Positions 6,147 to 50,365 of a DNA stretch of 64,000 nucleotides are shown here, piece after piece (position 1 is the first letter of the stretch; the number at the start of each line of letters is the position of its first letter). The DNA is taken from positions 1 to 64,000 of the forward strand of contig NZ_QITQ01000020.1 in the NCBI RefSeq assembly GCF_003260265.1. Direction: 5' to 3'. Under the pieces are notes generated by a model, which made no database searches, was not told where the DNA came from, and was given only the letters and a program-made list of their open reading frames with translations. This stretch comes from Roseovarius amoyensis. Its GTDB lineage: Bacteria > Pseudomonadota > Alphaproteobacteria > Rhodobacterales > Rhodobacteraceae. The translations under genes were made by a program, and so were the position numbers.

Positions 6147-6377
6147 ATGCCCAAACGTATTCTTCAAGGCAAGGTTGTCAGCGACGCCAATGACCAGACC
6201 GTGACGGTTTCGGTCGAACGCCGCTTCACGCACCCGGTCATGCAAAAAACCATCCGTAAGTCCAAAAAGTACCGGGCTCACGACGAAAAGAACGCCTACA
6301 AGGTGGGCGACATCGTGCGCATCACCGAATGCGCGCCGAAATCGAAGAGCAAACGCTGGGAGGTGTTGGAAGCCTGA
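6147..6377 (+). CDS. rpsQ: 30S ribosomal protein S17
   Basis: The 76-residue protein starts [19 protein letters not shown] and has the OB-fold features of S17, including [18 protein letters not shown] and [21 protein letters not shown]17 is a primary 16S rRNA binding protein. The gene follows rpmC closely (GAGGAGTCTTGAGCG before the ATG). A gap of 134 bases separates it from rplN. Confidence 0.97.
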
Positions 6378-47124: not shown

Positions 47125-47826
47125 ATGCGTCTGTTTGCTTTGGCGGTGTTCATCGCCCTTGTTTTGCAGGGCTGCACGGTTGCGACCGAGCCGGCGGAGG
47201 CCCCGGCGACAGCACCGCGCCCGGTGCCGGCCGCCGATGCGGCGGATATCTCGCGGTTCCGTACCATCGCCGCGCGGGTCGAACCCGTGGCCGAACGTAT
47301 CTGCCGTGAACACGCCAACAGCCCCAACTGCGATTTCAACATCGTCATCGACGACCGGCCGGGTCTGCCGCCGAACGCCTATCAGACGCTCGACAAGAAC
47401 AACCGCCCGATCCTGGCCTTTACCCTGTCGATCCTCGCCGATGTCGAGAACGCCGATCAGCTGGCGTTCGTCATGGGGCACGAGGCCGCGCATCACATCG
47501 CCGGCCATATCCCCCGCCAGCAGCAGAATGCGATGACCGGGGCGATCCTGCTGGGCGGACTGGTGTCGCTGACCGGGATGGGGTCGTCGGCGGTGGATGC
47601 GGCGGTCGATCTGGGCGCCGGCGTCGGCGCGCGCAGCTATTCCAAGGATTATGAGTTGGAGGCCGACGCCATCGGCACAGTGATCGCACATCATGCCGGG
47701 TATGACCCGGTGCGGGGCGCGGCCTATTTCACCCGCATCGCCGATCCGGGCGACAGGTTTCTGGGCAGTCACCCGCCCAATGCCAAGCGCATAGAAACCG
47801 TCCGCCGGGTGGCGGCCGGGCTCTGA
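47125..47826 (+). CDS. M48-family metalloprotease lipoprotein
   Basis: The 233-residue protein has a lipoprotein signal with LQGC (Cys17). The zinc protease motif HEAAH is at 119-123 with Glu120 catalytic, and the third ligand is in YELEADAIGTVIA. It resembles the BepA/LoiP group, which cleaves or helps assemble outer-membrane proteins. It lacks the TPR part of BepA. GCGGAGGCTGCTC precedes ATG 47125. Confidence 0.9.
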   Translation: MRLFALAVFIALVLQGCTVATEPAEAPATAPRPVPAADAADISRFRTIAARVEPVAERICREHANSPNCDFNIVIDDRPGLPPNAYQTLDKNNRPILAFTLSILADVENADQLAFVMGHEAAHHIAGHIPRQQQNAMTGAILLGGLVSLTGMGSSAVDAAVDLGAGVGARSYSKDYELEADAIGTVIAHHAGYDPVRGAAYFTRIADPGDRFLGSHPPNAKRIETVRRVAAGL

Positions 47827-47901
47827 CCTGCGGCGAAATCTGGGTCAATGAATTGATTATAAACGAATAAAATCGACCTGTCCGCAGGCTGCGGGGCAGG
47901 G

Positions 47902-47915
47902 TTGATTCAAGTCAA
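47902..47915 (+). promoter_or_regulatory. FNR/FnrL-type binding site
   Basis: TTGATTCAAGTCAA matches the FNR palindrome TTGAT-N4-ATCAA at nine of ten fixed positions. Its centre lies about 72 bases before the first DUF6455 gene. A weak -10 (TACGCT, 47939-47944) would put the site near -42, the usual activating place. Confidence 0.6.
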
Positions 47916-47979
47916 GGACCCGCCGGCCCACCATGACGTACGCTGTCACAACAGGGAGCGAGGAAAAGGGGAGGCGAAC

Positions 47980-48246
47980 ATGCCGGCCTCGGGAATACAG
48001 CGGCGCCATGCAGAATTGATGGAGCGGATGGCGAATGCGCTTGGCCTTGATCTGGATGAAAAGATCATGGAGGGCCAGCTGGACATCGAGACGCTGGACG
48101 ATGCGGTCTTGTGCTGCACCGGCTGTACCGATCCGGATGGCTGCGACCATTGGCTGAAAGCCCAGCAGGGCATCGCACCGGCAGCGCCAGGTACCTGCCG
48201 TAACATGACCCTGTTCGAGATGCTCAAGCGGGGCACGCGGATATGA
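47980..48246 (+). CDS. DUF6455-like cysteine-motif protein (first of pair)
   Basis: The 88-residue protein has an acidic helical N terminus and the cysteine set Cys46-X2-Cys49-X5-Cys55-X17-Cys73, with WL following the third Cys and N two residues after the fourth. The next gene has exactly the same spacing. Four cysteines at fixed spacing suggest a metal, Fe-S or redox site. An FNR-type box lies upstream, and AAGGGGAGGCGAAC precedes the ATG. Function unknown. Confidence 0.75.
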   Translation: MPASGIQRRHAELMERMANALGLDLDEKIMEGQLDIETLDDAVLCCTGCTDPDGCDHWLKAQQGIAPAAPGTCRNMTLFEMLKRGTRI

Positions 48247-48277
48247 TGCCGCTGCACCCCGTAAAGGAGGTTTCAAG

Positions 48278-48565
48278 ATGACCGCGATACTTGCGCGCCT
48301 GGGTGATCCGAACCGCGCCTTCTGGCTGACCCGCTCGGTGGCGCGTGCCATCGACGTGAATCTGTCCGAGGCCATGCAGCAGGGCGACCTGTCTGCGGCC
48401 GATTACAGCGCCATGGTCACCCGTTGCCGAAAGTGCATGCATGCCGACGACTGTGAGGCATGGCTGGCAACCAATGGCGCCGGTGCCGAACGGGCGCCTG
48501 AACATTGCGCCAATGCTGACCTGCTGAACACCCTGCCGGCGGGGCGGCGTTCGATCCGGGTCTAG
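48278..48565 (+). CDS. DUF6455-like cysteine-motif protein (second of pair)
   Basis: The 95-residue protein carries Cys50-X2-Cys53-X5-Cys59-X17-Cys77, the same spacing as its neighbour 31 bases upstream, with WL and N at matching places. Outside the motif the two differ strongly, so the duplication is old. AAAGGAGGTTTCAAG before the ATG is an excellent ribosome-binding site. It likely shares the FNR-controlled transcript. Confidence 0.75.
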   Translation: MTAILARLGDPNRAFWLTRSVARAIDVNLSEAMQQGDLSAADYSAMVTRCRKCMHADDCEAWLATNGAGAERAPEHCANADLLNTLPAGRRSIRV

Positions 48566-48685: not shown

Positions 48686-50365
48686 ATGGCCAGAACCGGC
48701 GGGCAGCTCTTGGTGGAATGTCTCGAGGCGCTGGGGGCGCAGCGGTGTTTCGGTGTCCCCGGGGAAAGCTATCTTGCCGTGCTCGACGCGCTGCACGCCT
48801 CTGCCGGGCGGCTGGACTATGTGCTTTGCCGGCACGAGGGCGGCGCCGCATTCATGGCCGCCGCGCATGGCAAGCTGACCGGTCAGCCGGGGCTGTGCCT
48901 GGTTACCCGCGGGCCGGGCGCCACCAATGCGTCGATCGGGGTGCATACGGCGATGCAGGACAGCGTGCCGATGATCCTGCTGGTGGGGCAGGTGGGCACC
49001 GACATGAAGGGGCGCGAGGCGTTCCAGGAACTCGATTACCGCGCGGTGTTCGGCAGCATGGCGAAATGGGTGACCGAGATCGACGATGCCGCGCGCATAC
49101 CGGAAATCATCGCCCGCGCCTGGACGACCGCCATTTCCGGGCGCCCGGGGCCGGTCGTGCTGGCATTGCCTGATGACATGCTGACCGACACCACGGATGC
49201 GCAGCCGGTATCGGGGGCGGCCGAGATCGCCGAGCCACACCCCGACCCGGCGGCGGTGGTGCGGGTGCGTGACATGCTGGCGGCTGCCGAACGGCCGCTG
49301 ATCCTTTACGGTGGCAACGGCTGGGATGCGGCGGGCAGCGCCGCCTTGCAGGGCTTTGCCGAAGGGTCCGACATCCCGGTCGTGTCGGCGTTCCGCTATC
49401 AGGATCGGTTCGACAACCATTCGCCGGTGTTTTGCGGCGAGGCGGGGGTGGCGATGGCCCCGCATGTGCGTGACCTGATTTCCGGGGCAGATACGATCCT
49501 CGCCATCGAGACCCGCTTTGGCGAGAATGTCACCGGCGGCTATGAATTGCTGTCGGTGCCGGAACCTGTGCAGCAGATCATTCATGTGCATGGCTCCGAC
49601 CGCGAGTTGGGCAAGGTCTATCGCCCGGCGCTGGGCATCCATGCCGGGCCCAACGCCTTTGCCGCCGCGCTGGCCGCGACGGGCGCGGTCAGCGCCAGCC
49701 GGGGTGGCTGGCGGGCCGATGCGCGCCAGGCGTACGAGGCCGCCTTTGACCTGCCCGATCTGCCCTCGCCGGTGGATATGGGACATGTCATGGCGCATCT
49801 GCGCGAGGTTCTGCCCGAGGATGCAATCGTGACCAACGGGGCGGGTAATTTCGCCATCTGGTCGGGACGGTTCCTGAAATACGGGCCGGCGGCGCGTCTG
49901 CTGGCACCGCAGTCGGGGGCGATGGGCTATGGTTTGCCCGCCGCCATAGCGGCCAAGCTGGCCCATCCCGACCGGTTGGTGCTGTGTTTCACCGGCGACG
50001 GCGATTTCCAGATGACCGCGTCAGAGCTGGCCACCGCCGCACAGGCCGGGGCGCAGCCGGTGGTGCTGGTGCTCAACAATGGTATCTACGGCACCATTCG
50101 CGCACACCAGGAACGCACCTATCCCGGCCGTGTCTTTGGCACCTCGATGACCGTGAACCCCGATTTCGCCGCGCTGGCGCGAGCGCACGGATTTCACGCC
50201 GAGCGTGTCGAAAAGACCGCCGATTTCGCCGCCGCGTTCGAGCGCGCCCGCACCTCTGACAGCGGTGCGGTGCTGGATCTGGCAATCTCTCCCGAGGCGC
50301 TGAGCCCCCGCGCCACGCTGAGCCAGATGCGCGCAGCAGGACAGGCCGCAGCGGCAGGCCGCTGA
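48686..50365 (+). CDS. Thiamine-diphosphate enzyme, acetolactate-synthase-like
   Basis: The 559-residue protein has the three-domain layout of the acetolactate synthase family. The catalytic Glu51 is in CRHEGGAAFMAA, and the ThDP motif starts GDGDFQMTASELATA (about residue 437). No small-subunit gene is next to it, so it may be a catabolic enzyme such as a sulfoacetaldehyde, benzoylformate or oxalyl-type relative rather than IlvB. Context with a TRAP-TAXI carrier suggests an acid substrate, an inference only. Confidence 0.85.
   Translation: MARTGGQLLVECLEALGAQRCFGVPGESYLAVLDALHASAGRLDYVLCRHEGGAAFMAAAHGKLTGQPGLCLVTRGPGATNASIGVHTAMQDSVPMILLVGQVGTDMKGREAFQELDYRAVFGSMAKWVTEIDDAARIPEIIARAWTTAISGRPGPVVLALPDDMLTDTTDAQPVSGAAEIAEPHPDPAAVVRVRDMLAAAERPLILYGGNGWDAAGSAALQGFAEGSDIPVVSAFRYQDRFDNHSPVFCGEAGVAMAPHVRDLISGADTILAIETRFGENVTGGYELLSVPEPVQQIIHVHGSDRELGKVYRPALGIHAGPNAFAAALAATGAVSASRGGWRADARQAYEAAFDLPDLPSPVDMGHVMAHLREVLPEDAIVTNGAGNFAIWSGRFLKYGPAARLLAPQSGAMGYGLPAAIAAKLAHPDRLVLCFTGDGDFQMTASELATAAQAGAQPVVLVLNNGIYGTIRAHQERTYPGRVFGTSMTVNPDFAALARAHGFHAERVEKTADFAAAFERARTSDSGAVLDLAISPEALSPRATLSQMRAAGQAAAAGR

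Follow-up and report, generated by a model that had tools for sequence, protein, structure and literature searches.

An FNR-type box conserved upstream of tandem DUF6455 genes with four near-invariant cysteines in Roseovarius amoyensis and its relatives

What might two small cysteine-bearing proteins do behind what looks like a low-oxygen switch? The question is raised by a 64,000-nucleotide stretch of the Roseovarius amoyensis genome (contig NZ_QITQ01000020.1; hereafter the window), in which a tandem pair of short genes follows a box of the type bound by the regulator FNR. A preliminary description, made from the letters of this DNA, had proposed an oxygen-responsive pair binding a metal or an iron–sulfur (Fe-S) cluster. 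Following it up computationally, we hold it slightly better than an even bet that this is an FNR-activated operon encoding two small proteins that bind a metal through four cysteines, Fe-S being likelier than zinc, and that play an accessory or regulatory part.

Both proteins are full-length members of the Pfam family PF20056 (DUF6455), whose title gives no function. Of its 85 model positions, protein 1 covers 1-84 and protein 2 covers 4-83, and both scores (Table 1) exceed the Pfam gathering cut-off of 23.7 bits. These two genes are the only DUF6455 matches in the 3.8-Mb host genome; neither protein has an NCBIfam model, and a plasmid collection searched with protein 1 only gave no match. The two share exactly the four-cysteine spacing first described, CX2CX5CX17C, formed by C46/C49/C55/C73 in protein 1, which has one extra cysteine, and by C50/C53/C59/C77 in protein 2. 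That the rest of the two sequences differs holds only in part: they have diverged, but 23 of 75 aligned positions are identical, and because both also belong to PF20056 they are diverged paralogues rather than unrelated proteins that share cysteines by chance.

The box, TTGATTCAAGTCAA, matches TTGAYNNNNRTCAA without a mismatch and agrees with the TTGAY-N4-RTCAA criterion of FNR class II promoters. At one mismatch to the narrower pattern TTGATNNNNATCAA, which four sites in the 64 kb show, TTGATTCAAGTCAA being one, the box would not stand out within the window alone and is not decisive there. Across the host genome, however, there are 30 perfect TTGAYNNNNRTCAA sites versus 1 for a reversed control pattern, and it is this count, together with the conservation of the box upstream of relatives, that places it beyond chance. 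A profile search confirmed ccoN beside one of the host-genome boxes; naming by eye the genes beside other perfect boxes, we read among them ccoN/uspA, ccoG, hemN, fnrL, cydA, dksA/TraR, ompW, phaC, a nosR-like gene, and one for an aa3 oxidase subunit. The 30 sites look like a classical FNR regulon, with DUF6455 at one of them. On a second host contig (C22, 6149-12826), four perfect boxes at 6149, 10982, 11038, and 12813 flank genes that we read by eye as ccoG, ccoN/uspA, hemN, and fnrL, two of the boxes lying between ccoN and uspA. A second, weaker site in the window, TTGATTATAAACGA (47853-47866, two mismatches to TTGATNNNNATCAA), begins 49 bp before the main box.

To see how the box fares in relatives, we turned to 198 genomes of the same family (Rhodobacteraceae), 115 of which contain DUF6455. 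Ninety-one loci from 86 of these genomes, together with the window, gave 97 gene clusters in 87 genomes. In the 250 bp preceding the first domain, the site most like the box had no mismatch in 72 clusters, one in 19, two in 2, and three or more in 4, so that 91 of 97 clusters, window included, carry a box with at most one mismatch. For 1795 control open reading frames (ORFs), each 250 aa or longer and drawn from all six frames of these stretches with spurious ones included, the corresponding upstream figures were 1.0% for a perfect match and 1.6% for one mismatch (2.6% together), and 20 shuffles of each upstream sequence gave no perfect match and 1.0% with one mismatch. The remaining 28 DUF6455 genomes hold weaker members; a scan of 300 bp gave a box at no more than one mismatch in 21 of them, perfect in 17, and none in the other 7. 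In this tally one locus without a match to the hidden Markov model (L289) counts as boxless, two that repeat genomes (L290, L291) are left out, and three of the boxes counted stand 224-273 bp ahead of the matched part, which may itself begin within the gene. By genome, the conservation upstream of orthologues that the preliminary description had called for is found in 106 of 115 (85/87 and 21/28). In a set of 80 named loci (Roseovarius, Ruegeria, Shimia, Thalassovita, and others) picked by a class-B peptide pattern and drawn partly from the same genomes as the 97 clusters, 79 have a perfect box and 1 has a single mismatch. For a benchmark we took 20 ccoN genes, picked from the best-scoring ccoN matches, in 20 of the 114 genomes that carry ccoN and DUF6455 together; all 20 show a perfect box, in a scanned stretch of 700 bp that exceeds the one for DUF6455.

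Beyond the family, a phylum sample contained DUF6455 in 29 of 398 genomes, 11 of them outside Rhodobacteraceae. Within 400 bp upstream of the Pfam match, a length that has no separate control, these 11 loci show nine perfect boxes, one with one mismatch, and one with two; two of the 11 members come from another class, one of which (L149) scores under the Pfam cut-off. Sixteen same-family loci of this sample, including one with two mismatches (L144), were kept out of the totals. Within the family, five genomes have a second DUF6455 locus elsewhere, of a single gene, that bears its own box, perfect in three (L119-L121) and with one mismatch in two (L122, L123). A four-gene DUF6455 cluster (L029; also L059) has a perfect box ahead of its first gene and another ahead of its second, so DUF6455 clusters need not be single transcription units.

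Aligning 91 promoters on the box brought out GGC just after it and a weaker T-A-n-n-C-T that spans +36 to +41, counted from where the box starts; TANNNT occurs at offset 35-37 in 36 of the 91 promoters, and each other offset from 15 to 74 accounts for 0 to 2. Since we read the TA--CT element as a −10 element, the box centre in relatives is predicted to lie at −41.5, and the TACGCT of the window gives a predicted −42.5. From this weak element, the predicted centres would fit class II FNR activation, in line with the earlier suggestion that the site sits where an activator would bind. The class II position is found in 19 of 23 directly FNR-activated Escherichia coli promoters with a known start (PMC3688515; this and the other papers given by PMC number are represented by excerpts). 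Class II FNR/FnrL promoters such as that of ccoN in Rhodobacteraceae have the same kind of box, and the −41.5/−42.5 geometry predicted here would match theirs. What sets DUF6455 apart is its product, which does not belong to the known respiratory, heme, or stress proteins. In the relatives' promoters, the chosen start codon follows the box centre at a median distance of 67.5 bp.

Examination of 176 aligned domains revealed cysteine at the four columns in 176, 164, 176, and 175 of them, with all four present in both window proteins, and the conservation of these residues on which the metal proposal depended is thus borne out. Neighbouring residues are kept as well, with Trp after the third cysteine in 142 domains, Pro before the fourth in 167, and Asn after the fourth in 167. 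The exact spacing, in contrast, does not serve as a signature: among 394 domains, 346 have CX2CX5C, 43 have CX4CX3C, in which the second cysteine is moved by two, and 5 have neither (two short fragments and one without the third cysteine among them). The conserved feature is therefore a four-cysteine site and not one spacing, and we regard CX4CX3C as natural variation of that site, worth testing for metal preference. The shift is seen in a subset of last-type paralogues, the last genes of their clusters (L051, L064, L084, L101). The four cysteines quite probably form one metal site. Between Fe-S and zinc in this site we lean modestly to Fe-S, with zinc distinctly less likely, because of the low-oxygen control and because the CX2CX5C spacing is shared with WhiB-like (Wbl) proteins (PMC7363131) and also occurs in E. 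coli FNR.

AlphaFold gives confident models of both proteins, all-helical, with a predicted local distance difference test (pLDDT) score of 92.4 and a predicted template modelling (pTM) score of 0.81 for protein 1 (alignment of 96 sequences) and 88.7 and 0.78 for protein 2 (60 sequences). Foldseek found no convincing match to either model in the PDB (best E 0.58 for protein 1 and 7.3 for protein 2), VIA-align re-alignment of the Foldseek candidates gave a best Z of 2.6 over 57 residues for protein 1 and none of at least 2 for protein 2, and a PDB sequence search with two profiles reached unconvincing best E values of 0.14 and 0.056. The absent match does not prove a new fold, since only Foldseek's own candidates were re-aligned. 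In a 168-row tree with few columns and most forks weak, support is 97 for each of two sets: one of 39 rows, 31 of them first genes of clusters and 7 single genes, to which protein 1 belongs, and one of 50 rows, 37 of them last genes, to which protein 2 belongs. Judged by their sequences, the two are an old first–last couple whose tandem order is conserved, with a third type between them in some genomes and up to four DUF6455 copies per cluster in relatives. The age of the couple argues for different jobs of the paralogues or for a hetero-complex, and the two may be partners.

We next compared the distribution of DUF6455 with that of ccoN, a cbb3 oxidase gene, and of nosZ, a denitrification gene, a comparison that the preliminary description had recommended. 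Phylogeny ignored, ccoN occurs in 114 of 115 DUF6455 genomes versus 64 of 83 without DUF6455 (Fisher 2e-7), and nosZ in 44 of 115 versus 11 of 83 (Fisher 1e-4). The expected association thus appears for the cbb3 oxidase and is weaker for denitrification: since 71 of the 115 DUF6455 genomes are without nosZ, the family is not tied to that pathway. Presence was scored by hand from profile matches at E ≤1e-50. For ccoN, 169 genomes are over the cut-off and 178 were counted; for nosZ (TIGR04246), the curated cut-off is exceeded in 3 of 198 genomes, and the other 52 counted score 404-472 bits, or 186 in one fragmentary case (G119), and are taken as NosZ of another clade. A completeness-filtered rerun of the tests used a hand-made list of 175 genomes (174 by program count).

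At the locus itself (Table 1), both genes have good ribosome-binding sites, GGGGAGG upstream of gene 1 and AAAGGAGG upstream of gene 2. A TTG-start ORF beginning at 47902 overlaps the box, and for gene 1 a start at the ATG at 47980, which has a ribosome-binding site, is more probable. Directly upstream lies a lipoprotein-like M48 metallopeptidase gene (47125-47826), just behind which the DUF6455 promoter stands. Downstream follow a thiamine-pyrophosphate enzyme of the acetolactate synthase group (48686-50365; NCBIfam PRK08199, 760 bits), a TAXI-type TRAP solute-binding protein, and a fused TRAP permease; the enzyme is not among the recurrent DUF6455 neighbours listed for 92 loci. Nor did these 92 loci show conserved downstream or operon partners, a same-strand downstream gene with a gap below 80 bp being present in 16. 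In 14 of the 92 (L072, for example), one of the three genes that follow downstream is a small opposite-strand gene with a CDGSH iron-sulfur motif (by eye). A first neighbour analysis was dropped since reverse-frame ORFs confounded its counts, and the sole candidate for a fusion of DUF6455 to a known domain, a 489-aa frame, looks by eye like an over-long start.

Table 1. Positions of the box, the predicted promoter element, and the two DUF6455 genes in the window
Feature	Position	Strand	Basis and remarks
FNR/FnrL-type box TTGATTCAAGTCAA	47902..47915	+	Exact TTGAYNNNNRTCAA; kept upstream of relatives
Predicted −10 element TACGCT	47939..47944	+	Offset 37 from box start; predicted transcription start ~47951
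DUF6455 protein 1, 88 aa, 'first' paralogue type, CX2CX5CX17C	47980..48246	+	PF20056 99 bits, tree, AlphaFold
DUF6455 protein 2, 95 aa, 'last' paralogue type, CX2CX5CX17C	48278..48565	+	PF20056 83.7 bits, tree, AlphaFold

In the mechanism we propose, an FNR-type activator (FnrL, possibly also Dnr) would bind at low oxygen ≈41.5-42.5 bp upstream of the transcription start and switch on the two-gene operon of long-diverged DUF6455 paralogues. The four near-invariant cysteines would together make up one metal site, where an Fe-S cluster (probably [4Fe-4S]) is likelier than zinc. In microaerobic life the Fe-S proteins would most likely serve not as enzymes but in an accessory or regulatory capacity, as sensors or by handing electrons on to partners. 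Such a role is suggested by the single domain of 80-95 aa, the lack of a recognised catalytic domain, and the presence of up to four paralogues per cluster. Of the original proposal, the oxygen part now has strong support in silico from the box in 106 of 115 genomes, the position of the −10-like element, and ccoN, and the metal or Fe-S part is one that we continue to infer.

That some activator of the FNR/Dnr type acts on the putative promoter is, judging from the box and its surroundings, very probable; which one is a separate matter, as the box sequence cannot discriminate FnrL from Dnr/FixK-type regulators. The regulator might be Dnr/NnrR or FixK instead of FnrL, with nitric oxide or a kinase relay as the signal and not oxygen itself. 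FnrL and DnrD of D. shibae have common targets (PMC5398030), and one other-family DUF6455 locus lies between genes named by eye as a cation P-type ATPase and a CBS-domain protein, a kind of protein that also stands in a published FixK list, as excerpted. We nevertheless consider this rather unlikely: ccoN, a standard FnrL target, has the same kind of box in all 20 promoters, although the pattern was itself the query and other regulators can share it, and most DUF6455 genomes are without nosZ. To the suggestion that the box is a chance match without regulation of note, the genes being read through from the M48 peptidase gene, we give practically no credence. An M48 gene does stand on the same strand among the three genes preceding the cluster in ≈62 of 92 loci (one of the hits being downstream) and adjoins the cluster in 41, but the conservation of the box, the −10-like element, and the separate boxes of the single-gene loci in five genomes all speak against it.

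Another alternative concerns the metal. The same FNR operon could encode small adaptor or scaffold proteins with structural zinc at the four cysteines and no redox chemistry. A four-cysteine site with CX2C suits zinc as well as Fe-S, the sliding second cysteine suits a structural site, and single members give weak matches to zinc ribbon, B-box, and Yippee domains. These matches are at chance level, however, and tight low-oxygen control has no special reason in a zinc protein, so we consider zinc unlikely, if the most serious of the alternatives. It is more doubtful still that the cysteines act as thiols outside a metal site, serving at low oxygen as a switch or to scavenge nitric oxide, sulfane sulfur, or copper. 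The enrichment of nosZ hints at nitrogen-oxide respiration and up to four copies per cluster could suit buffering, but the joint near-invariance of the four cysteines and the compact predicted helical fold point to one site, and the 71 genomes without nosZ count against this reading too.

Several observations weigh against an FNR-activated operon of Fe-S proteins. The −10-like element is weak, and in 9 of the 115 DUF6455 genomes the scanned stretch contains no box at one mismatch or better. The co-occurrence tests are uncorrected for phylogeny, and 83 of the 198 family genomes have no DUF6455 match; as 64 of these have ccoN, DUF6455 appears optional, or dispensable, for low-oxygen life. A strict [4Fe-4S] motif might not accommodate the moved second cysteine of 43 of the 394 domains, and the weak Pfam side matches of single members include zinc domains (E 0.03-0.09, chance level). 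The open-access literature searched yielded no expression, binding, or metal data on DUF6455.

That literature, from which subscription journals are mostly absent, also gave no study of DUF6455 that deals with its cysteines, structure, or function, and the family was found by name only in a table row for one Azospirillum gene in an ethylene study (PMC11819568). The predicted core regulon of alphaproteobacterial FNR includes an ortholog set, #2905, a 'hypothetical protein' with no R. sphaeroides locus (PMC2908626). This set may be DUF6455, a candidate identity only, as the excerpt gives no sequence, cysteines, or function; the regulatory link may thus have been seen earlier, unnamed. None of the unnamed hypothetical proteins in the excerpted FnrL target lists (PMC4634722, PMC4263372, PMC5398030, PMC2908626) was matched to DUF6455, and an attempt to tie the family to published FnrL chromatin immunoprecipitation targets failed (RSP_2573, RCC00435, and RCC00424 not matched). 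The R. sphaeroides ccoN double box, sought in 394 genomes, had two matches, neither with the published site pair.

A further comparison is with Wbl proteins, which bind a [4Fe-4S] cluster and a sigma factor, are about 80-140 aa long and helical, and have four cysteines including CX2CX5C (PMC7363131). DUF6455 proteins are likewise small, predicted to be helical, and equipped with four cysteines including CX2CX5C. They differ in that their fourth cysteine follows CX2CX5C, whereas in the Wbl order, CxnCx2Cx5C, it precedes (PMC7363131), and in that the G[V/I]WGG motif occurs in 0 of 399 DUF6455 domains; Wbl proteins are, moreover, confined to actinomycetes (PMC7363131). No Pfam match to Wbl appeared among the families listed (25 of 37 for side matches), nor a Wbl chain among the Foldseek matches of both models, which excludes nothing. 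A bolder idea, for which we see only a slim chance, is that DUF6455 is a proteobacterial convergent counterpart of Wbl: multi-copy small Fe-S proteins made while FNR is active, with a fold that has no solved relative and with first and last paralogues paired, whose clusters would read oxygen or nitric oxide and which would bind RNA polymerase or other partners and so fine-tune the low-oxygen programme.

The DUF6455 pair is thus a likely, unstudied part of low-oxygen life. Its family is present in 115 of 198 genomes, mostly with an FNR-type box, with a near-invariant four-cysteine site, often with two or more diverged paralogues, and with no convincing relative of solved structure in our searches. 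If Fe-S binding holds true, an oxygen-controlled family of Fe-S proteins has been overlooked, and its role at low oxygen would be directly testable in marine model strains.
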